From Polytrichum commune (taxonomy: Eukaryota > Streptophyta > Polytrichopsida > Polytrichales > Polytrichaceae), in NCBI GenBank assembly GCA_950295325.1, contig OX485805.1:6078501-6142500 (forward strand): a stretch of 64,000 nt of DNA. The letters run 5' to 3'. Below are positions 9,677 through 56,294 of the stretch, in pieces (positions within the stretch are counted from its first letter, which is position 1; each line of letters starts with the position of its first letter). Position numbers and translations under genes: made by a program. The notes under the pieces are model-generated. The model was not told the DNA's origin. It was given only the letters and a program-made list of their open reading frames with translations, and made no database searches.

Positions 9677-9776
9677 AATTATAGTGGGTGATTATTTTTG
9701 TCCTATGATTGATGTTTAATGTGTTGGTCGAAAGTCTTGATGAAGACTTAGGGGAAGAATTGGGGTCTTGGACCCA

Positions 9777-9785
9777 CGTTAAGTC
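9777..9785. other. Empty site matching the MULE insertion in unit 2
   Basis: The sequence here, cgttaagtc, occupies the position where unit 2 has the 12.6-kb MULE between two copies of cattaattc. Flanking sequence on both sides (cttggaccca and caccttcactagaaaatccc) is shared, so this is the uninserted form, 7 of 9 bases identical to the target duplication. Confidence 0.85.
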
Positions 9786-10853
9786 CACCTTCACTAGAAA
9801 ATCCCTGTGGCTCACACTAATTATTTCCATGCTAACTTTCCACGCACACTAATAGAACTAGTTATTGTAGTTTGAATCTCATCTGGAAACAGTTACTTCA
9901 CTTATGTGAAGTTAGCATTTCTTCATGGTATCAAAGATGGGGTATGCCAATGTAGAATCTTGCATACTGTAGTGAGGTTGAGAGCGAGACAAGAGATTGA
10001 GAGTTCATAGGTACCATGGTCAACGTGATAGCAAAGGAGAAAGTGTTAGAAGGACCCTCCAACTTGAGATCAAGTAAGGAGAGACACAAGTTCAAATTGC
10101 AGACAATTGCAACTTGCTGAGCCTGTCAAGTTTGAAGAAGTGAATGACATTCATGTCCTCTTCTGACACGCAACAGATGATAGTTAGGATCCATACATCA
10201 CTAATGGAAAATGTGTGGGATACTGTCTCATTTTTTCATGAGAACGTCTCTCCGCGAACATACCTGCTAAAACAGTAACGCCCAAATGTCTACATAATGT
10301 CACGTTTAGCGCCTCATAGCACTTCTCGGCTGATTTTGCATGGGTCCCCTCAGATTTCACAACTTAACATGCCAAGTTTGTTACCATAATCACTTTAACT
10401 GCAGCAATTCACAACACACACCTTGCACATATCAGAATAAGGCCGCTTGAATCATGACTTGCATGAAGAAAAATTCAAACTTGTCCAGCATAAAAAAATT
10501 CGCTGCCACATATGATGACGTGTATACCTCCCGTAGGAAGATTAGTCTAAAGTCATGTGGCTTGTGGGGCAATGGGGGAGGCTCCTCCAGGCCATCCACC
10601 TTTTGCAAACATCAATCTGATCATAATTTGTGATCTCGATATAAAGAGATTTGACTCCAACCAAGTTGGCGTGAATCACCAGATGTCTCAGTTCACCCTG
10701 GAGCATTATTCTAATTTCATGAGTGATTCCAACTGTTGTCTCTCGATACATAATAACTTTACTCAGCCTGTGGAGCTTCTCTTTCTACACCTAGTATAGC
10801 CCATCCATTTAAGAATCAAGATGCAATCGAATCAAGATTATGCATCTTGCACT

Positions 10854-10859
10854 TTTATT
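10854..10859 (-). terminator. Possible polyadenylation signal of monooxygenase gene A
   Basis: An AATAAA hexamer on the minus strand lies about 110 bases after the stop codon of gene A. The same hexamer is at the corresponding place in gene B (47307-47312). Weak evidence on its own; position and conservation support it. Confidence 0.4.
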
Positions 10860-10970
10860 CTTCAATCAACTATCACTATTCCAAGCTCTAAGTCCTCACT
10901 GAATAATCTTGACATGAAATTCCACACTCTTTAATGAGTTGGATACCACTTTGCTTTGGATCTTGTTTTG

Positions 10971-13900
10971 TTATTCTTGTTCAGGTTTCCAGTAGGTGGA
11001 GTCTGGATCTCCGGCAACATCTGCTGGGTATCTATTAATCCAACGGTAAAATTCCTTGTTCCGTTTGGCCTTTTCGCCCGGCGACAACTTTTGTACCCAC
11101 TCAGGCACGAAGCATGGCCAGCTTGTCAATTCCGCTGCAAAACCTTGCACCTTTGTGCATCGTGGGATGCGTACCTCCTCATACCTGGTTCAAGAAAACA
11201 AGGCCAATCAAATATTAACAACACATTACAGCAGTGGTTCCAAAAATTTACTTGTTTTTCCTTCTGAGGAGGAGGAGATATGGATTAAGGTGTAGTGTTC
11301 ATAGGTAGCTGAATTCATGTCATTGCTGGTACAAACTCATATAAACTGCATTCTTTGTTTAAATGCAAAACCGAAGCTGTGACCAGGCTAGTTCGGCACA
11401 ACTTAACTAAAATCTTTAAAATATGAAAACACACATCTCTTGGACCCATGGCGATGTAATTTACAATATGAAATTGAAGGGAACAATAATGTAACCTGGG
11501 GAGGGAAAATAACTAAGTGTAATGTCATGTTAACTCATTGTTTTCCGGATGTCATGATATGCATTTTATGACCTTTTTGAACCAGTAATGAAATTCTTCA
11601 AATTTTGAATTAACCTTACAAGATTTTCCCATCCAAATACTTACATATTTCCTCACTTCACTGATGAACTAGCCTCAATCATGCGGTAAACTTCACATGT
11701 ATGGTGTATAAATCAAGGATGAAGAATTTGTTTGGTGGCAAACCATTGAACCTTGGTTGCGTGCAAGTCCCGACCACATAGCTTTGCTTTGAATATGGTA
11801 AAATGGAGAAATTGTGAAGAATTATGCAGCACAATTCATAAAAATTGTTCAGACTCACAATGCACTCATATGTTCATATAGAAAGCTCCTGAAATAGTTG
11901 AAATAGCTGTAAAACCTAGTTCACCTCTTTATAGCATCTGGCAGTGCAGTTTCGGGGGTTTGACTCGAAAACGCATGATGGAGAAGTAGTGTTAATTGAT
12001 GTGCATCTTCATAGGCAACTCGGGTACCCATTCCAGGGCCAGGGTACATGCCATGTGCAGCTGCGTTCAATTATTACAGACCAGATAATTAGAACATCTA
12101 CACTCTATGCCTTTGAAGTAATGATTTTCAAGTAATGATTGCTCAATAAAATCTAGCAAAATTGTAGATAGAACTTTAACATTTAGTGAGATATGCCAGA
12201 AATATTCCACACAAAAAAAACACTTTATTAAACAATCACAACTACACTAAATTCCTATTAATGTGGGCCAATTATTTTCTAGAACCCACATTAATTTTCA
12301 ACTCTCGCCAAATATCTAGTTTGAAATTAGTGCATGCCACATTAATTGTAGATATGCGCACCATAAAACTATGTCCTTTTGGTTGGACATTTCAAGGATG
12401 ACGTAGGGAAAAATGCAGGGCCTTGGCCCCACATTATTTCCAACCTAACTAGACACTTAGATTGACCCTCATTAATTATTTCCACACCATTTTTTTACGC
12501 ACACTAATAATAGGAAAATCTAGTGTAATCTTTTCTTTTCTTTTCTTTTTTGAGACAGAAGGCCGACAGGCCAATGCCAAAGCACAGGAGGCAGTTGACC
12601 ACCTGGCAAGTTTTCCATCAAGTAGAGAGGAGATTTCATAGCCGGGATTCGAACCGCCAACCACTTCCTTGAGATATGGGTATCTCTCCACCATCATCCG
12701 GTAGTTCAAGGTCATTTCGGACCTAAATCTAGTGTAATCTTGAAGTCATGACAATGACATCCTTGACTGCTTTGGAAAGAGGCAACTTCAGAATGACCTC
12801 TAGGGATTTGCCACGTAATAACAGATAAGAAAAAGTAGAAACTTGTTTGTTCAAATAATCTGGCAAGTGAACCAAGTTTGTGGCAAGGAGAATGAGAGTG
12901 AAGTAACATACCGTCTCCCAAAAGCACAACTTGTCCGCTTGGATCACTCCAACTGCCTACAGGTAACCGATCAAAATTCCTGTCTTCACGAATGTGTTGG
13001 CTCTTGGATCTTTCCATGGCTGTCTTCAAATTTAGTAAATCCTCTGTGTCTTCAATCTGCTTCAGCACGCGGATTTTCCGTGCCTCTTGGCCATGGACGT
13101 GGAAATCCGAAGCATAGGATTTTGTAAGTTCTCCACTCTTGTCAGGAACTCCGCATTGCCAAAGCGTGTGGCCAGAACCTGCAAAACCCACCGTATAAAA
13201 CAAATTAACATAAAAATAATATATTTAACTTATCTGGTCAAAATTTGTTTTCATGCTTGTCATGTAAAGAAAATAATATTGAACTTTGATTTTGAGATAA
13301 AAAAGTGTATACCTAGTGTGGGTTAACATGGATGCCTTCAACTAGAATTTGGATTCCTCGCATGCTAACTTGAATATGGAGGTTCTCTTCTATTCTGTTA
13401 TGTATATATGACTTACTTTTTACTGTAAAAATCAAAATTTACAATAGAAACTTATGACAATGTGAAATTTTTCATGAGTGTCTAGTACCAACAGTGGTTT
13501 ATTAGTTTCCAAATCAAGGTATGTGGGCCTTAAGTGGTGACTCTTCTTAATTGGACACATATATTTGAGTAGCATATGGCAAGGCTAGTGGTCAAGAATG
13601 AACACACTTGTCACAATGCAATTGGACTATGTGCTCAAACCACATTGACATTGGGGGCAATATATCTTCTAGAGTGAAATGAAGTAGTTCTTCATCTTTG
13701 AGGCCCAAAATCACTATGAAGGTGATGATTAAGAAGTGCAGCAAGAGATTGAATTCACAAACTGATTCTATAAGTGGAGAACCTGCAAAATCTTACCACA
13801 ATAGTAAGTAATTGTGCCAGTCATTGATGTAGGGTAAATAATGAACTTGATCTCATCATCTTCTTGCAAATTTAGGTCCCTGCTAGAGACAAGGTCATAT

Positions 13901-16900
13901 CTATTATATCTATTATATTGATTAAGGTATATGTGTGTGTGATCAATATCTGATCTCAAAAGGACACCTATACTTGAGTGGTGTATGGTTGGGTGTGAAT
14001 CTAAAAATGGACACCACAAAAATATGTATTAAAAAATGATAGGACTACATGCTCAAACTTTGTTAATCATTCTAGACACAATAGTCAACTTGTGTAGGGG
14101 GGGACTTTTATGATCATTTAATAACTTAAAGAATCTTCACTTTGACAATGAATAAGATATTTATATGAGCTCCAAAATTTTTTTGAAGAAAGTGGCCAAG
14201 GGCACAATTTGGATTTGCTAATCATCTCACACTTGTTTTATATTCTACGAGAAGTGGGTGTAGAGAGGGAAGTGTCCATTTAAGTCCCGCTTACCTTGAC
14301 CAATGTCATGGGCATCTGTCACACTGTCTGGCAACAGAAGATTACAAAATCTGGTTGCATATGCAATGCGATGGTTTGCTTCTGGTGCATTTATTGCAAC
14401 AGGCGGGTTGCTAGTTAGGTATAAAATGAACTATAAGAGTTATTTCACGAGACCAAATATACATGATTCACAAGAACATGGATAGATCTAATTTCAAGAG
14501 CATGAGGTCTACAACTATCAACATAGGTTGCATTATCACCAGGTTGTGAATTTGATATGTAAAATGTTACCTCATTTGATCCACAGGTACAATAGCCAAC
14601 CAAGTGACCAACCCAAGGTCCCGAGGCTCATCACCCACCAACATCTTTCGCACTCGTGACCAAACACCGTCAGCGCCCACTAACAATTTGGCTCTCACAA
14701 CTTTTGTCTCCACTGCACAAGGATCACCTTCCGTCACTTCGAAGCGAGTCTCTACACCCTCCTTCAAAGACATAAGTCAGAAATGGAACAACTGATCATA
14801 CTTTACTGACAGATTTTCCATCTTGTTTGAATATGATAACCTACACGACAAGCTCAACTATGGCTTAAAGTCAGTTGTAACCTATAGTTGGGCGATACGT
14901 GGACTCCATTGACATACATAATTGGTGTGAGGAGGAATTGAGCTAAGTGCCGAGAAATCAAGATTTCATTTCAATCTTTGGTCTCTAGTGCACCACTCAC
15001 AAGCATGGGGATCTGACAATGGATTTTAGCCGCACTCTTCATAGCCACTAACAAGACGCCACATAATCGAGATTCCTCTTCAAACGGGTAATGAAGAATC
15101 ATCATATTGCAATCAGAACAATTTTAGCATAACAATATCCCTTTAAAGAAACGTGCCCCACGAATCTAGAGAGTTATGAATGGAAAGAGATGATTGATGG
15201 GCGTCGCCAATGTGAGATGGGTTTTCTTTTCAATGGGGCAATAGAAGAGGAGAATAAAACAATCTCTTATTGATTGTTAGGTTATTTAAGAATGTGAACC
15301 ATGAGGAGGAAGCACCGCTTGTGGGTGAACTTAAACCAACATATGGATATCTGCCCATAGTGAGTAGGGAAAATGACTCCCAAGTAGATTAGTAGCTACA
15401 ATGGTTAGATCCTTGAGAAGACAACCATGGAACAAAGTAGATTAATCTTCATGACACTTAGATGCTTGAGAAATGGAAGGTGAAAGGGCACCCAAGTTCT
15501 TCAAGATGAGCTATCTTTTGCTCTAGTGCAATCACAAGTTTGCACTTCAACCATCTGACATTGTCATGATGTCAACCCCATGTTTTCCATTTTATTCTTC
15601 TACTTAGAAGTATTTTTGGCATGGGAGAGGGGGTACTAGTGCTAATAAATCCAACTTCCAATAGCAACTGAACAAACATAAGTTAATCTATCATAAACAC
15701 AACAAATGATGAAATTCTTTAATATGCTTCAAAGAAATGAAATTCTTTAATATGCTTCAAAGAAGCAAACTGCCAAACTCTAATTTAAGCATGTACACAA
15801 TTAAATTCCATGGCGGTATAATAATCATACCTCAATGAGCTTGTAATCGACAAACCGGTGCCCATAGTGCACCACACTCGTGTCCAATTCACCAACGAGG
15901 GTGTCAAGGGCGCCCTTCCATGTGATCGCAAACATTCGCTCCGACTCGGTAAGTTGTGGTGCTCGCGCAATTAGCTTCTCCTCTTCACCCGGCGTCCGAA
16001 TCCGAATCGTGAATTTTCCCACGTGATGGCCAACAGATTCCATTCTGTCACTCAACCCTGGCTTGATTCCGTTCAGCGCTCGAATGCCTGCCGCATCAAT
16101 CATCACACCAACGTTTATAAGATGCATGCTCTATTCTAACCAGCATGGTAATGAATCACTAATTAAGCACAGGGAAGTTCTTCAAGTCTGGAGTCAAGAG
16201 TTCTTCAATCGCATTCATTCGTGTTGAATTGAACAAGCTCGTTTGCAGAATCTGCCGAACAGAATAAAAATACAACCACCAACTTGGGAGGAATTTAATT
16301 AAACCAGGACTCAAGGGGGGACTCATTACAGTAACTAGAGCCAAAGGGGGAGCACTTCTCAGAGAGGCCTCCAACAAACTATACAGCATTCAGCAAGCCT
16401 CTCATATTTTGGATCAATACTCAGAAGAAACATGTGTAATTCTAAATATCCTTTACAATTTCAGTCCAAATTGAAGAGTCGAACTCAGGTGTGACTATAC
16501 ATATTACAATGAGAATAAGCTCCTGAAGGTGAATAATGTAATGATATCCAAATGCTATCAAAATTGTGTAGAATCCTACTTAGGGTTGTCAACGTAGAGA
16601 TAGGATGGGCTTTTCTATGCTCCTCGGAGTGAGTTCTCTGCCATTCTAACCTGCCATAATATAAATCGAGGAGAGCATTCATCGCATCAACATTCATTAA
16701 GATGCATGATAAGTATCAAGGGTTGCAAGCAAACCACCAAGAAGCACAAGGAGGAGTCGGTCGAGAGCACTAATTTGACAAGTGAATGAAATTTTCATTA
16801 AATGTTTCGTAACATACCATTTTGTCCAATGGTCATGCCAGTGCCAAAGTGTTTGCGTTCCTTGGGTGATTTCTCAAACACATGCGCCTGAATACCTCGG

Positions 16901-16977
16901 TTTCGTAAGCCAACGGCCAAGGCCAGACCTCCCATCCCTCCTCCCACGATCGCAACATCCATCTCCATCGTTGCCAT
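10971..16977 (-). CDS. FAD-dependent monooxygenase, copy A (8 exons, 468 aa)
   Basis: Exons on the minus strand are 16818-16977, 15831-16087, 14571-14761, 14295-14410, 13797-13862, 12912-13178, 11925-12060 and 10971-11184, total 1407 nt. All introns are GT-AG and phases match at every junction. An in-frame TGA lies three codons before the ATG. The protein has the PHBH-fold group A flavoprotein signature: the Rossmann GGGMGG at residues 12-17 with the ribose-binding Glu at 35 (VFEK), the GADG motif at 168-171, and the GDAAH motif at 351-355 followed by GPGMGTRVAYEDA. It resembles salicylate hydroxylase, zeaxanthin epoxidase and urate hydroxylase-like FAD_binding_3 proteins, which hydroxylate or epoxidise small substrates using FAD and NAD(P)H. 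The substrate cannot be told. No transit peptide is evident, since the FAD motif starts at residue 7. Intron 6 contains a SINE that copy B lacks. Confidence 0.92.
12533..12724 (-). mobile_element. tRNA-derived SINE in intron 6 of gene A
   Basis: The element lies between direct repeats AAATCTAGTGTAATCTT at 12516-12532 and 12725-12741. The allelic position in unit 2 (about 48969-48985) has a single copy. Read on the minus strand it has an internal polymerase III B box GGTTCGAATCC (12645-12655), a looser A-box-like segment (gatggtggagaga) upstream of it, and ends in an A-rich tail AAAAAAGAAAAGAAAAG. It has no coding capacity. A long target duplication, A-rich tail and tRNA-like promoter together define a SINE. 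Confidence 0.88.
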
Positions 16978-17195
16978 CTCTGATCAGTCTTGGAGTCGGT
17001 CGGGATTTCGTGACCTAAGCCAAGTTGAGCTGTACATCTTGCACACCTTATTAGTCCACAACCAGCTAGTAGAGCGAGGATATTGAAATTGGTCAACAAT
17101 GGAGATGGACACCATGTTGGGATCAACAAATGGTCGGTCATCATATGGTCGGCCATCATAGAATAAGTTATTGGGACTGTCACAATAAGTGCCGC

Positions 17196-17386
17196 TCAGG
17201 CATAAAAGGTCAAATCATTGGACAACCAATACGAGGTTATTTTATCCTCTACTTCAACTGCCCACAATTTTTAAAAGGCCCATTCACACATTGGGAGTCG
17301 GCCCAAATCCAGCTCTAGGAGTAGGCCTCCCTTTCTCTCCCTCCCCAGATGTCGTATTGACTGCGAGTTGAATACCTCAAGACTAA
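17196..17386. other. Unit 1-specific sequence 5' of gene A
   Basis: Homology between the two units stops at about 17195 (unit 2: about 53363). Sequence from here to about 19358 has no counterpart in unit 2. It is either inserted here or deleted there. No gene is seen in this short part. Confidence 0.5.
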
Positions 17387-18371
17387 GGGCCACTTCACAC
17401 ACGAGACTGAGGCCGAAACCCCACTAGGGGCAGGCAAAGCAAACCGAGGAACATGATTGGCTGCGGCAGGGGTGCCAATGCCCCACTAGGGGCAGGAAAA
17501 ACGGCGGGAGGGTTACCTGGCAGGGCCGTTGGGCGAATGCAAGTGCCAGGGGAGGGTGCCTGGCTCTCCGACCCCCCCCCCCCCCCCCGGCGCCGGTGCC
17601 CTGCTGGTCCCGGTCTGCACCACCACGTGTACAGGTCTCCTTTGACGTGGACATCCGGGGAGGAGCTCGCTAGAGAGCCTCGGTGCCTCGCAGCTGCGGA
17701 GGGAGCCTCGGTGCCTCGCAGCTGCAGAGAGCCTCCCTCCGCCCCTAGTCTCCCGGTGGCACTGCCCCTCAACCTTGTCGCTAAGTGGGGCAGGAAAGCT
17801 TAATTACCCCTACACACAAGGCTACTGTAGCCTGTGTAAGCCTAGCCCGGCCGGCTAATGGAGCTGCCCCTAGTGGGGTTTCGACCTGAGTGCCCGTGAC
17901 CAGTACAGTATACCCTTTAGCATTCTCATTGGTGGAAAAGGCGGAGCAGGTTAAGTTCGCTTCACACTACGCTTGAGGGACCAATGGAGTATGTGAATGC
18001 GAGATGGATGTAAAGTCTACACGGATTCCCACAGGGCATCTAATGGATCATGTTTCATAGTTACTTGGACTATTTTCAGAAATCACCTCTTGGATTTAGG
18101 TCTAACACTAAATCGGGAGACCATGACACTCCAAATGCTCACAAACCGTTGGTTTATTCTATTTTATCATGTGTGAGGACCCCGCATGAATAAAATGTTA
18201 TTGAAATAGAATCTAGTGGAGGGCCCAATCACATATGACTTCACACTGCACTTGAGGATCCGTGACCACACAACGTGATTTTGGAGGTATCTTGGGATGG
18301 CCTTTGGACACTTTCTTTTGGGCTCTCACAATCTCGTGGTCACAGCTCTTGGCTTGTGTGTGAAGTGGCCC
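17387..18371. mobile_element. TIR element with TAA target duplication (Harbinger-like, non-autonomous)
   Basis: The two ends are inverted copies of GGGCCACTTCACACAC (16 of 16 bases) and are flanked by TAA at 17384-17386 and 18372-18374. TAA/TTA three-base duplications are typical of PIF/Harbinger elements. It contains a second, GC-rich element (17410-17884). Internal pieces at 17955-17980 and 18236-18265 repeat the end sequence in degenerate form, which suggests nested relatives. There is no transposase frame. Confidence 0.7.
17410..17884. mobile_element. Nested GC-rich foldback element
   Basis: Its ends are inverted copies of CGAAACCCCACTAGGGGCAG, the arm itself containing the palindrome CCCCACTAGGGG. 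A third partial copy of the arm occurs at about 17480-17498. CTGAG occurs immediately outside both ends and could be a 5-bp target duplication. A run of 17 C bases sits near 17572-17588. Open frames on both strands here (17395-17803) follow from the GC-rich low-complexity composition and are not called genes. Confidence 0.55.
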
Positions 18372-18374
18372 TAA

Positions 18375-19358
18375 ATTAGGGCCACTTTACACTAGAGTTT
18401 GAGGGCCCTTGACCCATGATATACAAATTATGTGATGCTCGAGAAGCCGGAGACAGTCCAAGTCCACTTTACACTAGCCCTTGAAGGCCTAAGGGCTTAG
18501 AGAAATTCAACTGATGAAAAATCTACATGTTGCCCTACATGGCAATAAGTGGATAATGTGTCATGGTCTACTAGATGTTGCAAAAGGCCCAAACCAAAGG
18601 TGGGTTTAATGTAAAACTTATGGCAATCAATTAGATCACCATTGGCTTCTAGAAAGATTTATATTGTCATGGTGGGAACTTGAACCAAAATGTATGTCGC
18701 AATCCCTCAACATGGTCAACTATATCTTGCACCCTTGATGTAGTTTCACCATTCATGCATAAATAACTGTTCTCGGTATACAATCTATACCACCACAAGT
18801 AGGCCATACACCCAAGTACAAAAACCCCAAAGTTGAATACGACAACAAGATTCCCGAAGCAATTCACTTAGCGCGGTGAAAGGGATAGTCACCCACCCGA
18901 GGTTGGTCCTCAAGAATCGAACACAACATACATTGAAATTAATAAAGACACTTTGCCGCCATAACACCCAACCTCAAGGTTTCCACACAAACACACAATG
19001 TACTAGTTAATATACAACTTTAAACCATTCAGGGCCCTCCCTAGACCCCATCTTCACCTAGCTATCAAAAGGGACCACCTCCGACATGAGGTAGTAGCAT
19101 TTGTCCCATGCTCATGCTCCGTAAACCGGTTCTAGGTTCACACATGATCTTGCGACTATGATCAGTGGTGAATCTCTCTCTCTTTCTCTCTCGTTTTTTT
19201 CTACGGGCAGCCTAATAGTTTACCCTGAAAATAAATAAATAAATAACATATCAGAACATGATGTCACTAGTGTTATTCAAGTAGTAGTATTCTAATGAGA
19301 GTACACTTCATCTCTCTGAGCAAGGAGTGTGAAGCTTGTGGGTCTAGTTACTATGATA
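18375..19358. other. Unit 1-specific sequence, partial TIR-element ends
   Basis: At 18380-18410 and 18459-18485 two further copies of the end motif of the preceding element (GGGCCACTTTACACTAG and CCACTTTACACTAGCCC) lie in direct orientation without visible inverted partners, so they look like truncated relatives. From 18600 to 19358 I see no gene. A minus-strand frame at 18667-18867 is hydrophobic but unrecognised. Confidence 0.45.
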
Positions 19359-19413
19359 GCTTACTTCAATACACTTTCACTTCTACACCTTTTGTGGGTT
19401 GTGAAGCTTGTAA

Positions 19414-19830
19414 GAGCGTCCCCACAAGACCGGACATGGGGCATGCCAACGCCAAAAATGGGGCATCCCAAGTTCCTAGGTGGCGGTACCGGCATAAATT
19501 GAGCCCCACCAATGTCCGGTCCCCCATAATTTAGAACCGGCCCGGGTATAGTAAAGACCTTCCCCTATCATAAATGGTTCATATAAGGGCCCTCCTCCGG
19601 CCCGCCAAGAGATTACTTTAATATCATATACTCCGATATCCTACTTAATCCCATGTCAGATAATAAGTGTCGTTGTCTTATTGTTTGCTTCCTAATTATA
19701 CCGGGGGTATGCTTAAGCTTTGGTGGGCTTTGACTCAAGATGAGCTGCCCCGCCCAAGATGGAGGGCTCCCCAAAGGTATAAAATATTATATACTCTATT
19801 TGGCGTGTATTTGATATGGCGGGGATGCTT
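19414..19830. mobile_element. Harbinger-like MITE with TAA target duplication
   Basis: The 417-bp element lies between TAA at 19411-19413 and 19831-19833. Its ends are imperfect inverted repeats, GAGCGTCCCCAC on the left and AAGCATCCCCGC on the right. Unit 2 has the uninterrupted sequence gcttgtaagtcgagtg at about 53429-53444, which confirms the exact borders. Three-base TAA duplication and GAGCATC-like ends point to PIF/Harbinger. No coding frame is evident. Confidence 0.85.
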
Positions 19831-19904
19831 TAAGTCTAGTGATCATAGTGGTTCACATCGACGCACTTTCACTTTTTCATCTTCATAAGAGTTCTCTACA
19901 AAGT

Positions 19905-22900
19905 AAATAGAAATGGGCAAGAATGACATTGTTGGAGACGAGCTTAGGGTAGCTTGTATGCATAATACGAGGTTACAGATGGATTGTTGTGTTTCATAAG
20001 AAGAACATTTATGGGAAACCCGTGCCAAGAGGTGACTTCGATACAATAACAAAATTAATACGCATTGGGAGATGACTTTACACTTACTTAAATCTAATAG
20101 TGGTTTCTACTTATGATTATTTGTATTTGATTATATCTTAGAAAGCATGAAAGTTTTGTTGACATCGTTAACAAGTAAGAAGTCTAGTGACACCTAATGT
20201 ACAGCCAACTAATATACTTTGTGATATCTTGGGGAGCATGGGCACATGTTAGGATTTCTTCTACAAAGCGTTACACGCCTTCTAAAGAGTTGCTTACTTC
20301 TATCAAGAATCCTACATGAGAATTTCTACATCATCCGGAGCATTTTTTGGTACACTTGACTGTCCTTGCTCCCTACGAGAAATTATATGGTAACATTATG
20401 TTGGTATTTGGTCATTGTATACAATTTGAAGAACTCCAAATTACTATTGTCCAACCCCAGTAAGTGCAAATATTCTTCCACAATCAATGTTAGAATTTGC
20501 ATGATTGACTTACACAAACACTAAAAACTACTAGAGCATGAGGTTTATATGAGAGATTCCACTTGGACTTTGCCAACACCTCCTTTAGTTGATTGATTTT
20601 TTCTTTTTCTTTTTCTTTTCTAAACTTGATAATAAGCTAGTGAGAGCTAACGCTGAGAGAATTAAAACTACCTCACACATACCTCCAGACTTGGACTCCT
20701 AATGAGCACTATGGAGTTATGATCTCCACCAAACAACAACTAGGCTTCTTTCTTTCATCCTCTTGACATCATATTGTGATATAAGGAAGAAACTACATGG
20801 ACGTGATCGAGGGATGATGATTGAGCACATACTTGATCTCCTACTTGCCCAAAGACCTTTAAGGTGGGCTCATACTCACCTAGGAATTATGTGATTTTCT
20901 TTGACAAAATTTGTTGTGTTTTTCACACTCATTCTAAGAATGAATGTTTCCTAGACATATAATTTAAAAGAAAAATGATTTGCAATGCTTCTAGGAAGAA
21001 GGTGGTGTACACAAGATGCATAAGTAATACATGTTCAAAACATGATTTATCCTCACGTATGCTTAGAAAGTGAGAAGCAAGTGTACGTGTTCACCAGTGA
21101 TAAGATTATTTGAACCCTTCATATGAAGGATGTATGTTGTCAAATAAACTAACGTAACATGGCTTTAAATAGAGATGACATATCTTATTTAGACATGTAA
21201 TTGATCATTACAAGATTAAACAACTATCCTATGTATATACGTTAATGAGATATACACCCACAATATGTGCCTACATAAGGAACATTCACTTACTAGTATA
21301 GTGCGGATTGACAACTCTCGTAGTAAATACTCAACCTCTCCATTCACTCCGACTTCTCCAATGCTTTACAACTCATGTGCACATTTCATTATGTTTGCAC
21401 TTGGCTTGTCTTGGCATGAGGTTTGGAGATGGGCAATGTCAAGAAGCTTGATCCCACAGTTGAAAGATTAAATCACCATGCTCACATAGTGGTGCAAGGC
21501 TATTAAAAATCATCTTTCTAACTTGTCATAATGGAATCTAGGTTTATTTTAAATAAAAATAGAATTTTAAAAACCAAAAAAATAGAGTCATGCATACCAA
21601 GTGTTCAATTGACACAAGAAAACAACTGAAAAATATCTTAACACCCCCAAAAATACGAAAAGTTTACATCTCAAAGTTTACATTTATTTATTTATTTATT
21701 TATCTTAAAACAACAACAACAAACTTTGCCATAACCCTCTTCTTTCCCCTACCCATCCATGTATTCTTGAACATTTTATGATTTTTTTTGATGCCGTGAT
21801 CCACCAGGTATCAAATACCAAGTTTTATTACAATATCTATACCCACTAAGTATATGAAAAATGATGCTAACACATCTATGAAAGTAAAACACGATAGTTC
21901 GCTCATATTGAAGGCGACTTGATCATTTGAAATACCTTGTTATCTCGACATTTTCTAGGATAGCAAGGTGAATCAATTAGGAGAGGAACTAAGCTCTTGT
22001 TGGCCAATTTTTGGAGGGTTGTAGCAATTTTCATGAGATGTTTTATCCTCTTGCATACATGATGACACATAAAATCTATCATCTTCATGATGGTAGTATT
22101 TGTAATAGCCTTGGGACCATAGAAGAGTGTTAGATAATTGGAGCATAATATGTGCAAATAGTGGTGCATTGCATGAATGATAGGTTTCTTGACCTCCATG
22201 GATTTAATGCACCTTAGTTTCAATTGGTCCTATCGTTTGTCCTAGAGTTGCGGAGGAGAGGACACGTGCAACTAAAGAATGGTTGGGAAGACTTTTATCA
22301 AGTTTGAAGTCTCTAAAAATGAGCAAGTTAAATGCCGAGGCTACTATAGTGCCTTGAGATGGACCTAGAAATTATGTGAAACTATTTTTGGGAGGCATGG
22401 GCTTATGCAACCATGGTTCGTGAGTGGTTGGCCTAGCTTACACAAACTTGGCATAGAGTGCTAGTAATCCCTTCTAGTACAACAATGAGTGAGAGAGAGA
22501 GTTCTTCAAGCAAAACTTCATCAATATCCATTTACGAGCTAATTTGAAATTGAAAACACTTGATGCACCAATGTAGATTTCATTGGCAAATTACCCATTG
22601 GTTGCAACTCAATTATGATTTTATGGTTACCCTCTCAAACTTACATATTAACCAACTCATCAAGAGTTTGATCCCGAGACTTCACACATAACTCTCTTGT
22701 AGTGGGAAAGTGAGGTTCATCAAGTGGATTTTTGGTAAAATGTCTTGAAATTCAACACTTCCATCATGTACAACTTCAACCAAATTCTTACATGTGTCCA
22801 CTTCCTTGCTATAAGAAAAAGAAAAAAATCCCCCAATTATCAATCATATAATGATGACTTGACATAATAGAGCAATTTGGTTCATAAACAACATCATATT

Positions 22901-23285
22901 TGATACGAAAGTTGTTCATACATACTACAACCCAAGGGAAAACCCTAAGGAATGCATGCACCTACCAAAGGAAACCTAACATACAACATTAAGTCCGCCT
23001 AGCTTAACACATGTCAGTGCACAATTTGATGTTCATGCATGACAAGCTTCGTTAATGAATATCATGTTGGTTCGGAACAACCTTTCAACCTCTATCACAA
23101 CCTCCATAGTTAATATTATTTCAATTGTCCAACTTATTGATTTCACATTCTCCCATGAGGAAGTCCCCGACAACACTATTCAAGTCAATAGATAAATAAA
23201 TACATAAATTTCAAACACTCGTAAACATCATGAAAAGACATTATTTGATTTGTCAACCTCACTATCATCATGGCCAATGTAAGTG
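19905..23285. other. Unit 1-specific AT-rich region, no supported gene
   Basis: This 3.4-kb stretch has no counterpart in unit 2, which has about 340 unrelated bases at the corresponding place (53520-53860). Only short open frames are present, none with recognisable motifs. A poly-purine/pyrimidine patch is at 20600-20625 and a tttatttatttat run at 21682-21703. Target duplications were not found, so insertion here versus deletion in unit 2 remains open. Confidence 0.45.
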
Positions 23286-32195: not shown

Positions 32196-32198
32196 TTA

Positions 32199-42140: not shown

Positions 42141-42243
42141 TGAGCACCAAGGTCCACCTGCACGTGTGAGGACTTGAAACATGTGACCGTTCCTGTAACA
42201 TGCGCACGTTACAACACGTTACAACACATATGACTGGCTTCAC

Positions 42244-45700: not shown

Positions 45701-46212
45701 TGAGTCCATCATCACATGGATCGCAGCACGCTCCATTGTGGCAGAAATCCGGAGCGTGTGTTGAGGGAGCAGGTTACAGAGAATCAAGCGGGGTGGAGAA
45801 GTTTGAAAACACCTATGGAGAGCCCAATCCCCAAGGCTGATTAGCTTACCACCCATCGATGGATGTGGGTGATGGTCCACATGATTTTGCATCCATGAGA
45901 ATGGCATGATGCAAGGCATGTCCTCCTGATGGGAGGTTCATTGTGTCATCGGGAGTCGGGATGAGCCGTCCCCTTGAACGGGTGGCCAGCGTGGCGGCCA
46001 CTGTGGCAGTTGCCATGGCTGCTAGCGTGGCGGGGTCCGTTACAGGCTGGCGACAGGGACGGGTACAGGCCGGGGCATGGATGGGTCCGGCTTCGTGGAC
46101 AGGGTGACCCGGCAGCGCAGGGATCGAAAAAACAGGGTACAGTCTGGCACCCGACTGCAGGGCCTCGATTTCCTAAACTGAGTAAATACCATTGGGTATG
46201 GTAATGTTAGGG
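45701..46212 (-). repeat. MULE right terminal inverted repeat
   Basis: 512-bp inverted partner of 33588-34099, followed directly by the second copy of the 9-bp target CATTAATTC (46213-46221). Confidence 0.93.
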
Positions 46213-47306
46213 CATTAATTCCACCTTCACTAGAAAATCCCTGTGGCTCACACTAATTATTTCCATGCTCATTTTCTGCACACACTAATAGAACTAGTTG
46301 GTGTAGTTTCAGTCTCATCTGGAAACAATCACTTGACTTATGTGAAGTTTAGCATTTCTTCATGGTATCAGAGATGGGGTATGCCAATGTAGAATCTTGC
46401 ATACTGTAGTGAGGTTGAGAGCGAGACAAGAGATTGAGTTCATAGGTTCCATGGCCAACGTGATAGCAAAGGAGAAAGTGTTAGAAGGACCCTCCAACTT
46501 GAGATCAAGTAAGGAGAGACACAAGTTCAAATTGCAGACAATTGCAACTTGCTGAGCCTGTCAAGTTTGAAGAAGTGAATGACATTCATGTCCTCTTCTG
46601 ACACACAACAGATGATAGTTAGGATCCATACATCACTAATGGAAAATGTGTGGGATACTGTCTCATTTTTTCATGAGAATGTCTCTCCGCAAACATACCT
46701 GCTAAAACAGTAACGCCCAAATGTCTACATAATGTCACGTTTAGCGCCTCATAGCACTTCTCGGCTGATTTTGCATGGGTCCCCTCAGATTTCACAACTT
46801 AACATGCCAAGTTTTTTACCATAATCACTTTAAAACATAGCTGATATTAACTGCAGCAATTCACAACACACACCTTGCACATATCAGAATAAGGCCGCTT
46901 GAATCATGACGTGCATGAAGAAAAATTCATACTTGTCCAGCATAAAAAAAATTCGCTGCCACATATGATGATGTGTATACCTCCCGTAGGAAGATTAGTC
47001 TAAAGTCATATGGCTTGTGGGGCAATGGGGGAGGCTCCTCCAGGCCATCCACCTTTTGCAAACATCAATCTGATCATAATTTGTGATCTCGATATAAAGA
47101 GATTTGACTCCAACCAAGTTGGCGTGAATCACCAGATGTCTCAGTTCACCCTGGAGCATTATTCTAATTTCATGAGTGATTCCAACTGTTGTCTCTCGAT
47201 ACATAATAACTTTACTCAGCCTGTGGAGCTTCTCTTTCTACACCTAGTATAGCCCATCCATTTAAGAATCAAGATGCAATCGAATCAAGATTATGCATCT
47301 TGCACT

Positions 47307-47423: not shown

Positions 47424-50400
47424 TTATTCTTGTTCAGGTTTCCAGTAGGTGGAGTCTGGATCTCCGGCAACATCTGCTGGGTATCTATTAATCCAACGGT
47501 AAAATTCCTTGTTCCGTTTGGCCTTTTCGCCCGGCGACAACTTTTGTACCCACTCAGGCACGAAGCATGGCCAGCTTGTCAATTCCGCTGCAAAACCTTG
47601 CACCTTTGTGCATCGTGGGATGCGTACCTCCTCATACCTGGTTCAAGAAAACAAGGCCAATCAAATATTAACAACACATTACAGCAGTGGTTCCAAAAAT
47701 TTACTTGTTTTTCCTTCTGAGGAGGAGGAGATACGGATTAAAGTTTAGTGAAGTGAGGCAGCTGAATTCACGTCATTGCTGGTACAAACTCATATAAACT
47801 GCATTCCATGTTGAAATGGAAAACTAGCAGTGACCAGGCTAAAATAACTAATATCCTTTTGGCATTACTTAACTAAATCTTAAAATATGAAATCACACAA
47901 AAACTTGGACCCGTGGCGATGTAATTTACAATATAAAATTGAAGGGGAAAAAATGTAACGTGAGAGAAAAAAAGCTATGTGTCATGTCATGCTAACTCGT
48001 TGTTTTCATGATGCCATGATATGCATTTCATGACCTTTTTGAACCAGTGATGAAATTCTTCAAATTCCAAATTAACTTTACAAAATGTTCCCATCCAAAT
48101 AATTAAATATTTCGTCACTTCAGTGATAAACTAGCCTCACTCATGCGGTAAACTTCGCATGTATGGTATATAATTTAAGGATGAAGTAATTGTTTGGTGG
48201 TAAATCATTGAACCTTGGTTGCATGCAAGTTTGACCACATAGCTATGCTCTGAATATGGTAAAATGGAGAATTTGTGAAGAATTATGCAGCACAATTCGC
48301 AAAAATGTTCGGACTCACAATGCACCCATATGTTCATATAGAAAGCTCCTGAAATAGTTGAAATAGTTGTAAAATCTAGTTCACCTCTTTATAGCGTCTG
48401 GCAATGCAGTTTCGGGGGTTTGACTGGAAAACACATGATGGAGAAGCAGTGTTAATTGATGTGCATCTTCAAAGGCAACTCGGGCACCCATTCCAGGGCC
48501 AGGGTATATGCCATGTGCAGCTGCGCTCAATTATTACAAACCACATAATTAGAACATCTACTTGCTATACCTTTGAAGTAATGATTTTCAAGTAATGATC
48601 ACTCAATCAAATCTAGCAAAATTGTAGACAAAAACTTTTGGTGAGATATGCCAAAAATATTCCACACATAAAACGGTACCACTACACTAAATTGTCCTAT
48701 TAGTGTGGGCCAATCATTCCCTAGAACCCACATTAATTTTCAACTCTCGCCAAATATCTAGTTTTAAATTAGTGCATGCCACATTAATTGTATTTTTAGG
48801 AAATAGATATGTGCACCATAAAACTATGTCCATTTGGTTGGATGTTTCGAGAATCATTAGGGAAAAATTGCAAGGTCTTGGGCCCACATTTTATCTAGCC
48901 TGACTAGACAACTAGAGTGGCCCTCATTGATTATTTCCATGACAATGTTTTACCCACACTAATAATAGGAAAATCTAGTGTAATTTTGATGTCATGACAA
49001 TGACATACTTGACTGCTTTGGAAAGAGGCAACTTCGGAATGACCTCTAGGGATTTGCCACAAAATAAAAGACAGGAAAAAATAGAAACTTGTATGTTCAA
49101 ATACTTTGGCAAGGAGAACAAGAGTGAAGTAACTTACCATCTCCCAAAAGCACAACTCGTCCGCTTGGATCACTCCAACTGCTCACAGGTAACCGATCAA
49201 AATTCCTGTCTTCACGAATGTGTTGGCTCTTGGATCTTTCCATGGCTGTCTTCAAATTTAGTAACTCCTCCGTGCCTTCAATCTGCTTCAGCACGCGGAT
49301 TTTCCGGGCCTCTTGGCCATGGACGTGGAAATCCGAAGCATAGGATTTTGTAAGCTCTCCATTCTTGTCAGGAACTCTGTATTGCCAAAGCGTGTGGCCA
49401 GAACCTGCAAAACACACCATATAAATCAAATTAATACAAAAATATATATATTTAACTTATATGGTCAAAAGTTGTTTTTATGCTTGTGATGTAAAGAAAA
49501 TAACATTGAACTTTGTTTTTGAGATAAAAAGTGCATACCTTGTGTGCATTAACATGCATGCCTTCAACTAGAAGTTTGATTTCTCGCACGCTAACTTGAA
49601 TATAGAGGTTCTCTTCTATTCTATGATGTATATACAAGTTATGTTTTATTGTAAAAATGAAGATTTACAATAGAAACTTATGACAATGTGAACTTTTTTG
49701 TGAGTATCTAATAACAATAACGGTTTATTAATTTTTTGATCAAGGTATGTGGGCCTTAAGCGGTGACTCTTCTTAATTGGACTCTTATTAACTGGACACA
49801 TATATTTGAGTAGCATATGGCAAGGCTAGTGGTCAAGAACGAACACACTTGTCACGACGCAATTGGACTATGTGCTCAACACACATCGATAATGGGGACA
49901 ATATATCCACTAGAGTGAAATTAAGGAGTTCTTCATCTTTGAGTCACCAAGTCTCTATGAAGGTGATGATTAAGAAGTGCAACAAGAGATTGAATTCACA
50001 AACTGATTTTATAAGTGGAGAACCTGCGAAATCTTACCACAATAGCAAGATATTGTGGTAGTCATCGTTGTAGGGTAAATAATGAACTTGATCTCATCAT
50101 CTTCTTGCAAATTTAGCTCCCTGCCACAAACAAGGTCATATCTCTTACATTGATTAAGGTATATGTGCCTAATTCAATGTCTGATCTTAAATGGACACCT
50201 ATACTTGAGTGGTGTATCGTTGGGTGTGACTCTACAAATGGACACCACAAAAACATGTATTCAAAAAGGATTGGACTACATGCTCAAAATTTGTTAATCG
50301 TTTTAGACACAGTAGTCAACATGTGTACGGGGGACTTTATGATCATTTAATAACTTAAAGAATCTTCACCTTGACAATGAATAGGATATTTATGTAAGCT

Positions 50401-53173
50401 CCAAAAATTATGAAGAAAGTGGCTAAGGGCACGATTTGGATTTGCTAATCATCTCACACTAATTGCTTGATTTATATTTTACGAGAAGTGGGTGTAGAGA
50501 GGGAAGTGTCCATTTAAGTCCCGCTTACCTTGACCAATGTCATGGGCAACTATCACACTGTCTGGCAACAAAATGTCACAAAATCTGGTTGTATATGCAA
50601 TGCGATGGTTTGCTTCTGGTGCATTTATTGCAACAGGCGGGTCGCTAGTTAGGTATAAAATGAACTGTAAGAGTTACTTCACGAGACCAAATATACATGA
50701 TTCACAAGAACATGGATAGATCTAATTTCAAGAGCATGAGGTCTACAACTATCAACTTAGGTTACATTATCACCAGATTGTGAGTTTGATATGTAAAATG
50801 TTACCTTATTTGATCCACAGGTACAATAGCCAACCAAGTGACCAACCCAAGGTCCCGAGGCTCATCACCCACCAACATCTTTCGCACTCGTGACCAAACA
50901 CCGTCAGCGCCCACTAACAATTTGGCTCTCACAACTTTTGTCTCCACTGCACAAGGATCACCTTCCGTCACTTCGAAGCGAGTTTCTACACCCTCCTTCA
51001 AAGACATAAGTCAGAAATGGAAGACCTGAACATACTTTACTGACAGATTTTCCATCTTGTATGAATATGATAACCTACACAAGAACTCAACTATGGCTTA
51101 AAGTCAGTTGTAACCTATAGTTGGGAGATACATGGACTGGATTGACATACATAATTGGTGTGAGGAGGAATTGAGCTAAGTGCCGAGAAATCAAGATTTC
51201 ATTTCAATCTTTGGTCTCTAGTGCACCACTCACAAGCATGGGGATCTGACAATGGATTTTAGCCGCACTCTTCATAGCCACTAACAAGACGCCACATAAT
51301 CGAGATTCCTCTTCAAACGGGTAATGAAGAATCATCATATTGCAATCAGAACAATTTTAGCACAACAATATCCCTTCGAAGAAACGTGCCCCACGACTCT
51401 AGAGAGTTATGAATGGAAAGAGATGATTGATGGGCGTCGCCAATGTGAGATGGGTTTTCTTTTCAATGGGGCAATAGAAGAGGAGAATAAAACAATCTAT
51501 TATTGATCGTCAGGTCATTTAAGAATGTGAACCATGAGGAGGAAGCACCGCTTGTGGGTGAACTTAAACCAACATATGGATATCTGCCCATAGTGAGTAG
51601 GGAAAATGACTCCCAAGTAGATTAGTAGCTACAATAGTTAGATCCTTGAGAAGACAACCATGGAACAAAGTAGATTAATCTTCATGACACTTAGATGCTT
51701 GAGAAATGGAAGGTGAAAGGGCACCCAAGTTCTTCAAGACGAGTTGTCTTTTGCTCTAGTGCAATCACAAGTTTGCACTTGAATCATCTGACATTTTCAT
51801 GATGTCAACCCCATGTTTTCTTCTTTTTCTTCAACTTAGAAGTATTTTTGGCATGGGAGAGGGGGTACTAGTGCTAATAAATCCAAGTTCCAATAGCAAC
51901 TTAACAAACATAAGTTAATCTACCATAAACACAACAAATGATGAAATTCTTTAATATGTTTCAAAGAAGCAAACTGCCAAACCCTAATTAAGCATGTACA
52001 CAATTAAATTCCATGGCAGTATGATAATCATACCTCAATGAGCTTGTAATCGACAAACCGGTGCCCATAGTGCACCACACTCGTGTCCAATTCACCAACG
52101 AGGGTGTCAAGGGCGCCCTTCCATGTGATCGCAAACATTCGCTCCGACTCGGTAAGTTGTGGTGCTCGCGCAATTAGCTTCTCCTCTTCACCCGGCGTCC
52201 GAATCCGAATCGTGAATTTTCCCACGTGATGGCCAACAGATTCCATTCTGTCACTCAACCCTGGCTTGATTCCGTCCAGCGCTCGAATGCCTGCCGCATC
52301 AATCATCACACCAACGTTTATAAGATGCATGCTCTATTCTAACCAGCATGGTAATGAATCACTAATTAAGCACAGGGAAGTTCTGGAGTCAAGTAGTTCT
52401 TCAATCGCATTCATTTGTGTTGAATTGAACAAGCTCGTTTGCAGAATCTGCCGAACAGAATAAAAATACAACCACCAACTTGGGAGGAATCCAATTAAAC
52501 CAGGACTCAAGGGGGGACTCATTACAGTAACTAGAGCCGAAAGGGAAGCACTTCTCAGAGAGGCCTCCAACAAACCATTACAGCATTCAGCAAGCCTCTC
52601 ATATATTGGATCAATACTCAGAACAAACATGTGTAATTCTAAATATCCTTTACAATTTCAGTCCAAATTGAAGAGTCGAACTCAGGTGTGACTATACATA
52701 TTACAAGGAGAATAAGCTCCTGAAGGTGAATGATGTAATGATATCCAAATGCTCTCAAAAGTTTGTAGAATCTCACTTGGGCTGTCAACGTAGAGATAGG
52801 ATGGGCTTTTCTATGCTTCTGGGAGTGAGTTCTCTGCCATTCTAACCTGCCATAATATAAATCGAGGAGAGCATTCATCGGATCAACATTCATTAAGATG
52901 CATGATAAGAATCAAGGGATGCAAGCAAACCACCAAGAAGCATAAGGAGGAGTCGGTCAAGAGCACTAATTTGACAAGTGATTGAAATTTACATTAAATG
53001 TTTCGTAACTTACCATTTTGTCCTATGCTCATGCCGGTGCCAAAGTGTTTGCGTTCCTTGGGTGATTTCTCAAACACGTGTGCTTGAATACCTCGGTTTT
53101 GTAAGCCAACGGCCAAGGCCAGACCTCCCATCCCTCCTCCCACGATCGCAACATCCATCTCCAACGTTGCCAT
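47424..53173 (-). CDS. FAD-dependent monooxygenase, copy B (8 exons, 468 aa)
   Basis: The exons are 53014-53173, 52034-52290, 50805-50995, 50529-50644, 50038-50103, 49138-49404, 48385-48520 and 47424-47637. Each has exactly the length of its partner in copy A, all borders are GT-AG, and the frame is open throughout. The FAD motifs GGGMGG, GADG and GDAAH are all kept. Differences from copy A are scattered substitutions, for example a Met to Leu near the start, Arg to Gln before NRGIQ, a changed pair in the exon 4 product (TDAHD versus IVAHD), and several in exon 5. No frameshift or stop is seen, so both copies look functional. Intron 6 is shorter because it lacks the SINE. The substrate is unknown, as for copy A. 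Confidence 0.92.
48969..48985. other. Empty site of the intron-6 SINE
   Basis: A single copy of the target (aaatctagtgtaatttt) with continuous flanks at the place where unit 1 has the SINE. Confidence 0.8.
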
Positions 53174-53361: not shown

Positions 53362-53520
53362 CATGATATGTGCCCGGTGCTTTATCCTTCGACCAATACA
53401 CTTTCACTTCTGCACCTTTTGTGGGTTGTGAAGCTTGTAAGTCGAGTGATCAAAGTTGTTCACATCGACAGACTTTCACTTTGTTATCTTCATCAGAGTT
53501 CTCTACAAGTGGAACTAAAA
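53362..53520. repeat. Shared backbone 5' of gene B
   Basis: Matches 19359-19413 plus 19831-19904 of unit 1 and contains the empty MITE site (cttgtaagtcgagtg near 53429-53444). In unit 2 it follows the gene B flank directly, whereas in unit 1 an extra 2.2 kb lies between. Confidence 0.8.
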
Positions 53521-53861
53521 TTAGGTTTAGTTTTTTTATATGTTTATTTTATAATATTTTAGTTTATACCTTCTACTTTCTCAAAGTATTCATACACATT
53601 CAAACTAATTAAGTGTGATTATGTGTAATTGTGTCTACATAACTGTATTAGAAGGTAATTTTGCGCAAGGCCTAGGTTTCTACAAGCATATATACACATT
53701 TGAAGTAATTGAGCCTGATTAAGTGCAAGTAAGTGCATTCAGCCCAATTAAGCATAATGAAGCCTAAACAAGTGTAATTAAGCACATCATTTCTCATATC
53801 TGGATTAAATAATGATTAAGTGCATTTTATAATTAATTGGGCTTATTTAATTTGTATGTTG
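53521..53861. other. Unit 2-specific AT-rich segment
   Basis: About 340 bases without a match in unit 1. They contain a loosely repeated motif around taattaagtg and gcctaattaagc. No gene. Confidence 0.5.
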
Positions 53862-54025
53862 AGGTATACATATAGACTTCATTGATATTTTCCCTAGTCA
53901 ACATGTGTGTGTGTGTGTGTGTGAATAAAACCACCTTATAGCTCTTAAATACCTTGCAATGTTAACATTCTCTAATTGCCGCTTTGAAAACCACCAATTC
54001 CCATGCTTCCCCCTCCCCCCCCCCC

Positions 54026-54453
54026 AAGCATTAAAAAACACCCATCTAGATGATCACGCCCTAGCGACATCCAACAAACTATGGCCAATTAAAACCTAAT
54101 TTTGAAGTGCCAAAGCCCCCACAATGATAGCCCTCGTCCCCTTTTCCAGTGGTTTGATTCATCAACCTCACAATCATCATGGTGCATGTATGCGAAGGTA
54201 TATGTAGACGTCAATGATATTCTTCGTAGCCAACAAAAACAAGCATTAAAAAACACCCATCTAGATGATCACGCCCTAGCAACATCCAACAAACTATGGC
54301 CAATTAAAACCTAATTTTGAAGTGCCAAAGCCCCCACAATGATAGCCCTCGTCCCCTTTTCCAGTGGTTTGATTCATCAACCTCACAATCATCATGGTGC
54401 ATGTATGCGAAGGTATATGTAGACGTCAATGATATTATTCGTAGCCAACAAAA
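54026..54453. repeat. 215-bp local tandem duplication
   Basis: 54026-54240 is repeated as 54241-54453 with only a few differences (gatattctt versus gatattatt, and the length of an A run). Unit 1 has a single, more diverged counterpart near 23450-23660, so the duplication is specific to unit 2 and young. Confidence 0.93.
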
Positions 54454-55131
54454 AATACTCAATACATAGGTACTGTATCTATAGATAAAATCCACCTTGT
54501 AGCTTTTAAAGATTGGTTCCCCCTCCCCTGACCATTTAAAACCCCATTGAGATGATCATGCCCCTACAACAACCCAACAATCTATGGGCCAACTGCAAAA
54601 CCAACTTGAATCATAAATGCCCCCACAATGACAACCCCCGAACCATTTCCCTCCGTGGGCTAGTACATCAACCTCATTATCGTCACGTCCAATGAATGTG
54701 AAGATATGCATACAAAGTTTGTTGATATTTTCCTTAGCCTACAAAAGCATAGTACATAGACATGTAAAAATACAATCCACCTCGTAACTCTTAAATACAT
54801 CACAATGATAATCTTCAAAAAATATCACATTAGAAACTACCAATACATCACCCCCCCCCCCCCTCCCGACCAATAAATTTCCTATTAGAATGATCACACT
54901 CCAACAACAACCCAAGTATACATTGTGGGCCAAAGCCTCCACAATGACCACACACACACCTCCCAAAAAAAAATTAAAAAGTAAAAATAAAACCTTTGAG
55001 AGAAGGCAATACCGCTTTTTCTGTAGCCTAGGCTTGTAACTCATGAGTCCCATGTACAGATAAGAGCTCATATCTTGAATGGTGAAGCGTCTCTCATTTA
55101 AGCCAACCCCCATTTGCCATTCATCTCTCTC

Positions 55132-55134
55132 TTA
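55132..55134. other. Empty site of the Harbinger insertion
   Basis: Single TTA in ctctcttactcaaac. Flanking sequence matches 24080-24118 on the left and 32196 onward on the right, so this is the ancestral, uninserted form. Confidence 0.88.
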
Positions 55135-56294
55135 CTCAAACAAAATACATAGTTCAAAAAGTTGACCACCAAGTTGTTGCATGGAGAGAAAGAAAAAATA
55201 CCAACAGAGAAAAAAAAACACATTATTACCGTAGGAATGAGAGCCTATAACATTACACACCCATGCCTAGTTGCTATTTTTTCCAAACAAGAAGGGCAGT
55301 AACTTGGGCATGGGTCCCGGGAATAGAATTAGGGAAAATTGCAAGTCATGTGTTGTCAACGTGCATTGACTACTGACAATTGACGCAATAGGTGAGTCAT
55401 GCATGCCAACAATGTGTGGTTGGATGCTTTTGATTTTTATAAATAAAATTAATTGTTGTAATGAAACATGGGATTGTGTGGTTAATTAGCTTTGCAAGTA
55501 AATAATACTCGGGTTGGTGACTATTCATTTTGCAAGGGTGGCCCAACATATGGGGGACATAACCAAATTCTCGGCACTTGGGGGTGCAGTTCCCTAGTGT
55601 TGAGTAATGTTAAGAGGAGTAGTACATAGACACCCAATCAAATAGCTATAAAAAAAATTTATGGTCTTCATTCTTTGTAAAGAATTGAATAAAATTCATA
55701 CGCCAAAGAACCATGATTATTATTATTTTAAACTTGAAACTTGAAGATAGCTAAAACCTAACAAACAAATAAACAAAAACTCCGAATTACTATTCCCAAA
55801 ATTTGCCACCATGTGGCATGGCCGTAACCCTAAATCCCTCCTTCCCAAAGTAAGGCATTTACCTTACTTTGCATCTCATGAGCCATGATCATAGTAAGGG
55901 ACACACACTCTTATTCGTACATCGATGTTGTTTTCTTATTCTTTTTTGTTAATCAAGTTTCATTCGTACGATATTATGATTGAAGCACCTTTGTCAACTC
56001 AACAATTTGGCTACCCAAGCATAATTTACCATGGTAGCCTTTAATGCATCTACATGTAACTATGTGTATTAGCACATGCCCATCCATGTCAACTTAAGAT
56101 CATTACATGACATTTATCATGATACATTCACATAATAATTATCCCCAATAGATGTAATTTCTAGCACTTTTCAATACTATATTATTACACCACAATAATG
56201 TTCCGTGCTCCCTTTTGTTCCCATTTCAAAAGATGGGAGTGGATCATGATCATCTTCCTTATAGTGTTCAATGAAGGGGACTGTCACAACGAAC

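Follow-up and report, generated by a model that had tools for sequence, protein, structure and literature searches.

Tandem duplication, the dating of insertions by empty sites and gene conversion are all known processes. In maize, tandem duplicates are reported to account for about 10% of annotated genes (PMC6118310). For the moss Physcomitrella, PMC3045890 describes tandem arrays as showing high similarity and as possible targets of gene conversion. The locus presented here is a well-preserved and legible new example of these processes; no paper on it was found in the literature on moss genomes and on the general topic, searched without the species name. As in other tandem duplicate genes of plants, adjacent gene copies in direct orientation, together with their flanking DNA, diverged after the duplication, and there is no difference in kind, but the unit borders and the later insertions are unusually legible. 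Compared with the concerted evolution described for Physcomitrella (PMC3045890), conversion at this locus appears patchy, and whole blocks seem to have escaped it. The history of the locus can be read from the empty sites of the sister unit, which makes it a clean example. It also shows a trap: raw backbone divergence misleads where conversion is patchy and deletions have gone unseen. Overall, the pair offers a legible yet uneven clock of ordinary genome change.

The window, i.e. the whole stretch of 64,000 nucleotides that was analysed (G000:C3:6078501-6142500), belongs to a genome of 408 Mb with seven contigs of 42-78 Mb. Self-BLAST and unit-to-unit BLAST revealed two direct, collinear units, and the diagonals of this dot-plot-type comparison were interrupted at the borders of the unit-specific elements. 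Both the units and their limits (Table 1) agree with the first-pass annotation of this DNA, and the assembly does contain the tandem duplication. Over eight paired segments, 669 of the 9,213 ungapped aligned bases were mismatched (7.3%); this count omits the unit-specific elements and a few bases between the chosen segments, and the alignment was made piecewise across the locally repetitive DNA at 23278-24118. The backbone of about 10 kb proposed earlier is a fair measure of the DNA that still aligns, but not of the ancestral unit. A genome search with unit 2 as query, with scores computed for 39 of its 9,478 first-look candidates, found the non-repetitive backbone nowhere but in unit 1. By eye, the junction (33473/33474) and the outer borders have about 1 bp in common, with no sign of a longer repeat, which fits end joining or template switching and not unequal crossing over between repeats. 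Given the divergence between the units, an artefact of assembly at this point is unlikely. Regarding the left flank, a local repeat family occupies 4633-5355, 7378-7833 and 8944-9424, with a short piece inside the unit (10501-10605), and a weak DDE_3 transposase-like fragment lies at 6010-6267 on the plus strand (19.5 bits, under the Pfam cut-off of 28.6).

Table 1. Features of the duplicated locus, in window coordinates.
Feature	Position	Strand	Basis or remark
Unit 1	9677-33473		self-BLAST, unit-to-unit BLAST
Unit 2	33474-56294		self-BLAST, unit-to-unit BLAST
Unit 1 gene, predicted FAD-dependent monooxygenase (PF01494)	10971-16977	-	seven exons, 435 aa
Unit 1 exons	16818-16977, 15831-16087, 14571-14761, 13797-13879, 12912-13178, 11925-12060, 10971-11184	-	
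Unit 2 gene, structure as unit 1	47424-53173	-	seven exons, 435 aa
Unit 2 exons	53014-53173, 52034-52290, 50805-50995, 50038-50120, 49138-49404, 48385-48520, 47424-47637	-	
Tract 1, almost certainly gene conversion	10559-11278 (unit 1 coordinates)		0/720 mismatches, 506 bases non-coding
Tract 2, probable older gene conversion	14207-16986 (unit 1 coordinates)		91/2,740 mismatches (3.3%)
SINE, intron 5 of unit 1 gene	12533-12724	-	TSD, empty site, genome copies
TAA MITE, Harbinger-like	19414-19830		TSD, empty sites, copy number
PIF/Harbinger, 8,077 bp	24119-32195	+	TSD TTA, Pfam, empty site
Harbinger transposase ORF	26666-28393	+	DDE_Tnp_4, E 4.4e-30
Harbinger Myb/SANT-like ORF	28350-29555	-	PF13837, 28.9 bits, barely above cut-off 27
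MULE, 12,625 bp	33588-46212		TSD, TIRs, Pfam, empty site
MULE-domain ORF	42247-43686	-	PF10551, 28.3 bits, barely above cut-off 27.6
MULE accessory ORF, 503 aa	37310-38818	+	finger-like Cys/His stretch by eye
Tandem duplication of 215 bp, unit 2	54025-54239 / 54240-54454		copies 99.07% identical
Unit 1-only stretch, 2.17 kb	17194-19366		unit 2 deletion, established for the right part, presumed for the rest
Unit 1-only stretch, 3.38 kb	19902-23277		unit 2 deletion, from older-repeat relatives
Foldback-like element, internal fragment, unit 2 only	53507-53854		cut at both ends

Each unit carries one gene, whose model was made by hand from the genomic sequence. Both genes show an open frame of 435 codons with six GT-AG introns and a single terminal stop, so the earlier statement that neither gene was harmed holds for the reading frames and reaches no further than them. 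The FAD_binding_3 domain (PF01494, E 4.6e-23, residues 5-350 of 408) covers most of the protein, and the matches in the PDB were flavin monooxygenases, tropone 2-monooxygenase among them (E 3.7e-24); the query in both cases was a 408-aa form in which the small fourth exon is absent. Both genes are predicted to encode a class A FAD monooxygenase. They differ by a dN of 0.022 and a dS of 0.059. Two distant paralogues, with 55-57% protein identity, share the chromosome with this locus and lie at 38.8 and 39.3 Mb. Among the 21 amino-acid differences between the units, 10 can be assigned to the branch of unit 1 and 4 to that of unit 2, with 7 left undecided, and the excess of 10 versus 4 is not significant (two-sided binomial, ~0.18, by hand). 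The fourth exon was placed by phase, by similarity to L007 and by a reading frame in the paralogue L008, where the exon search itself chose other candidates. An 87-bp stretch matching L008 (13519-13605) was also considered as the missing exon and was dropped, given its stops and indels. This stretch of intron 4 (49781-49846 in unit 2) is 76-77% identical to an intron of L008, and the introns elsewhere have no match to that paralogue.

Concerning the differences between the units, all five that the first-pass annotation had listed exist, and the borders of the transposons are set by the empty sites of the sister unit. Four of them (SINE, TAA MITE, Harbinger and MULE) are transposon insertions, as it had proposed for all five, and the other one is a 215-bp tandem duplication. 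Absent from that list were the two large unit 1-only stretches (17194-19366 and 19902-23277), the unit 2-only repeat fragment (53507-53854), another stretch found in unit 2 only, about 215 bp long and near 54770-54990, and, near 33370, a gap of some 70 bp. The SINE is flanked by a 17-bp TSD (AAATCTAGTGTAATCTT, 12516-12532 and 12725-12741), and unit 2 has the single target at 48971-48987, with a difference at 1 of 17 positions. Like tRNA-derived SINEs it presents a TSD and an A/T-rich tail, here TTTTC-rich; a B-box-like motif (GGTTCGAATCC, minus strand) was recognized by eye only and the A box was not identified. The TAA MITE lies between TAA copies at 19411-19413 and 19831-19833, has imperfect terminal repeats by eye, and corresponds to a single TAA in unit 2 (53438-53440). 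It takes 43 of the 49 listed matches of a 6-kb query, which indicates a high copy number, and its site is also empty in L044 and L045, two dispersed relatives of the older repeat that it entered. The Harbinger is bordered by TTA (24116-24118 and 32196-32198), present once in unit 2. Finally, the MULE has a 9-bp TSD (CATTAATTC, 33579-33587 and 46213-46221), within the 8-11 bp of these elements, and a single target in unit 1, CGTTAAGTC, with 2 of 9 bases different. Its TIRs of about 510 bp are 99.4% identical (the inverted match of 520 bases, at 99.42%, includes a few flanking bases). Given these TSDs and empty sites, the best reading is that the four transposons inserted after the duplication, and for them the claim that every insertion is younger than the duplication would stand.

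Divergence between the units is far from uniform. A change-point fit of the backbone gave five blocks with 3.2, 0, 10.6, 3.3 and 12.1% mismatch, the first of which is mixed (17/257 at 9677-9933 and 11/623, or 1.8%, at 9934-10558). The zero block (tract 1) has no mismatch at its non-coding bases, versus 11.7% (255 of 2,184) in the block that follows; were the rate 10.6%, the chance of 0/506 would be ~2e-25, assuming independent sites. Moreover, the longest mismatch-free run covers 723 bases, against a maximum of 176 in 2,000 shuffles. Synonymous differences follow the same pattern, with 0/62 sites in exon 2, 1/47 in exon 3 and 0/44 in exon 7, that is, 1 of ~153 sites versus 16 of ~145 in the other four exons (Fisher ~7e-5, with non-integer site counts and a grouping chosen after the data were seen). 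Tract 1 is a sharp tract of low divergence over coding and non-coding sites alike, and gene conversion almost certainly explains it. The 3.3% block (tract 2) is probably explained in the same way; its introns 1 and 2 show 3.7 and 3.6% mismatch, its right border is soft, with a dS of 0.15 in exon 1 at the edge, and part of its low divergence could be due to constraint. The block mismatches and the exon-wise synonymous contrast point to stretches overwritten by gene conversion, and they give no support to the single "natural relative clock" as it was worded before.

It might be argued that the low-divergence blocks are simply constrained sequence and that the backbone could still serve as a clock, since exons lie in these blocks and the mismatch of tract 2 is lowered without reaching zero. 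However, tract 1 is unchanged at 506 non-coding bases as well as at the ~44 synonymous sites of exon 7, dense mismatches begin at 11289, just past it, and exons 1, 4, 5 and 6 have dS values of 0.09-0.15, all of which makes constraint a decidedly unlikely explanation. The only outgroup genes, the distant paralogues, match in the exons and in one intron 4 stretch of 66-87 bp, so they are silent on constraint at the 3' flank. The order left flank, unit, unit, right flank is also the look of a false tandem duplication, in which the assembler would have set two haplotypes one after the other and the insertions would be allelic. Nevertheless, the unconverted blocks reach 11-12% mismatch, far above the usual allelic divergence, the join has no N run at 33473/33474 (nor is there any N base in the window), and the plastid contig C8 carries rbcL with trnR-CCG beside it, and a gene that we take to be accD; this content shows a plant, and a PDB search with rbcL placed a Rubisco first. 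The trnR-CCG beside rbcL presumably points away from flowering plants, perhaps to a moss, whose sequenced stage would be haploid. Two haplotypes are therefore very improbable, and gene conversion between true tandem copies remains the preferred reading. What ends a conversion tract is a more speculative matter. Unit-specific insertions and deletions could act as barriers, each new element freeing its neighbourhood to diverge, which we consider possible but doubtful. All eight size differences above 60 bp that could be placed (MULE, SINE, two deletions, the 215-bp duplication, the second 215-bp-sized stretch, Harbinger and the gap near 33370) are outside the low-divergence tracts, and the TAA MITE would be a ninth. 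These tracts make up 4,083 of 9,213 aligned bases (~44%), and the chance of eight out of eight would be ~1% (0.56^8, by hand) if positions were independent, but size differences cluster in non-genic DNA and the pattern is only suggestive.

Unit 2 did not only gain DNA. An older dispersed repeat, with relatives at 67-80% identity, extends in unit 1 over 19901/19902 to about 21239, and in unit 2 only a stub is present (53394-53508). L045 matches 19198-19251, 19325-19413 and 19832-20981, and for L044 the matches are 19351-19409 and, split into three pieces, 19832-21239. Neither relative carries the MITE. Since these relatives cross 19901/19902 and unit 2 keeps the stub, unit 2 lost DNA there; sequence comparison demonstrates the 3.4-kb stretch as a unit 2 deletion on this basis. 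In all 6 fetched copies of the foldback-like element, the sequence goes on beyond both ends of the unit 2 fragment, whose simplest reading is filler DNA at a repaired break. At the site of the 2.17-kb stretch unit 2 has 19 bp of other sequence (53375-53393). The older-repeat argument covers its right-hand 169 bases (19198-19366), and the remainder would also be a deletion because of the age of a MITE inside it and because no target duplication was seen by eye. This MITE (17886-18374) differs from its consensus at 46 of 480 positions, which exceeds half the unit divergence (p ~0.001); outside CpG (38/448) the excess is weak (p ~0.02). Unit 2 lost at least most of the 3.4 kb, and probably 5.5 kb in all. 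In the same region, a TAA MITE at 17386-18372 apparently holds another element nested in it (~17412-17886), which is missing in other copies, and a second start of a similar MITE adjoins it at 18378.

The 2.2-kb and 3.4-kb stretches could instead be additional insertions into unit 1, as they are repeat-rich and high-copy MITEs lie inside the first one. Against this, no TSD was seen by eye at the borders of either stretch, the older repeat crosses 19901/19902 in two relatives and leaves its stub in unit 2, and a doubly truncated repeat fragment occupies the break; the argument is weaker for the outer part of the 2.17 kb, and overall we regard insertion as rather unlikely. The converse possibility is that some elements predate the duplication and were later precisely excised from one unit. 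PIF/Harbinger elements are capable of precise excision, but SINEs, to our knowledge, do not excise, the Harbinger differs by 0.05% from its sister copy versus 12% between the units, and the empty site of the MULE has no footprint, so that excision is hardly credible. With insertions after the duplication and deletions in unit 2 as the preferred readings, the proposed growth of the locus, from about 20 kb to its present size of about 47 kb, has to be revised: the start would be nearer 30 kb for the young double locus, an arithmetic value from pieces added and subtracted.

The unconverted blocks, with 11-12% between units, correspond to ~6% per unit. The SINE and the TAA MITE differ from their consensus at 11/192 (5.7%) and 26/420 (6.2%) positions, respectively, and since these values are indistinguishable from ~6%, both insertions would be about as old as the duplication. 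The consensuses were built from hand-picked best matches (10 SINE, 10 TAA MITE, 12 MITE and 6 foldback copies). The fetched copies are at 1.6-4.7% (SINE), 1.0-4.5% (TAA MITE), 3.3-5.8% (MITE) and 2.0-4.6% (foldback) from them, and the window copies are farther in every family, with 9.6% for the MITE at 17886-18374 and 5.7% for the foldback fragment.

Taken as a whole, the following scenario is highly probable, the polarity of its events being read from the repeats and the sister unit. End joining or template switching would have produced the tandem copy of a segment of about 15 kb that carried a single FAD monooxygenase gene and the older dispersed repeat. Unit 1 would then have gained the SINE, the TAA MITE and, very recently, the PIF/Harbinger. 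In unit 2, the MULE would have inserted, 215 bp would have been duplicated on the spot, and two repair events, with filler DNA as their trace, would have removed about 5.5 kb. Conversion between the units would have wiped out divergence around the last exon at the least, and a second stretch, over exons 2-3, was probably affected as well. After the SINE and the MITE may have come the probable tract 2 (3.3%), the 215-bp duplication (99.07%), the MULE (arms at 99.4%, a weak clock), tract 1 and the Harbinger, in an order that is tentative for the last four. Because TIRs may already differ when an element inserts, the MULE arms were not used to fix a date.

Both large elements fit known transposon types. 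The unit 1 element shares with PIF/Harbinger DNA transposons the 3-bp TWA target (TTA here, TAA at the sister copy), the DDE_Tnp_4 transposase and a Myb/SANT-like second ORF, and no tested feature of this 8-kb element sets it apart. Its near-identical sister at C3:5.95 Mb, ~142 kb away, differs at 4 of 8,077 bases. Furthermore, two other transposase pairs on different chromosomes differ at 1/1,719 and 1/1,641 bases. With differences of 0.05-0.06% in three copy pairs over the stretches compared, the family looks recently active. The unit 2 element shares with Mutator-like elements the 9-bp TSD, the long TIRs and the MULE-domain transposase, but it differs in its accessory ORF, which has no Pfam match and is widespread in the genome (at least 97 matches). 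Judged by coordinates, this ORF also lies between the two opposed TIRs in 10 further pairs of the family, and it has the appearance of a conserved accessory gene within this MULE family. The apparent closest relative of the MULE (G000:C1:31991631-32054853) has its TIRs 63 kb apart and the accessory ORF in two pieces, and it seems to have been split by tens of kb of later insertions. Within the window MULE, about 10 copies of a 29-bp unit form a tandem repeat at 41052-41336, and the left arm contains a 171-bp tandem duplication (33986-34332, 98-99%) that the right arm (45701-46219) seems to lack.
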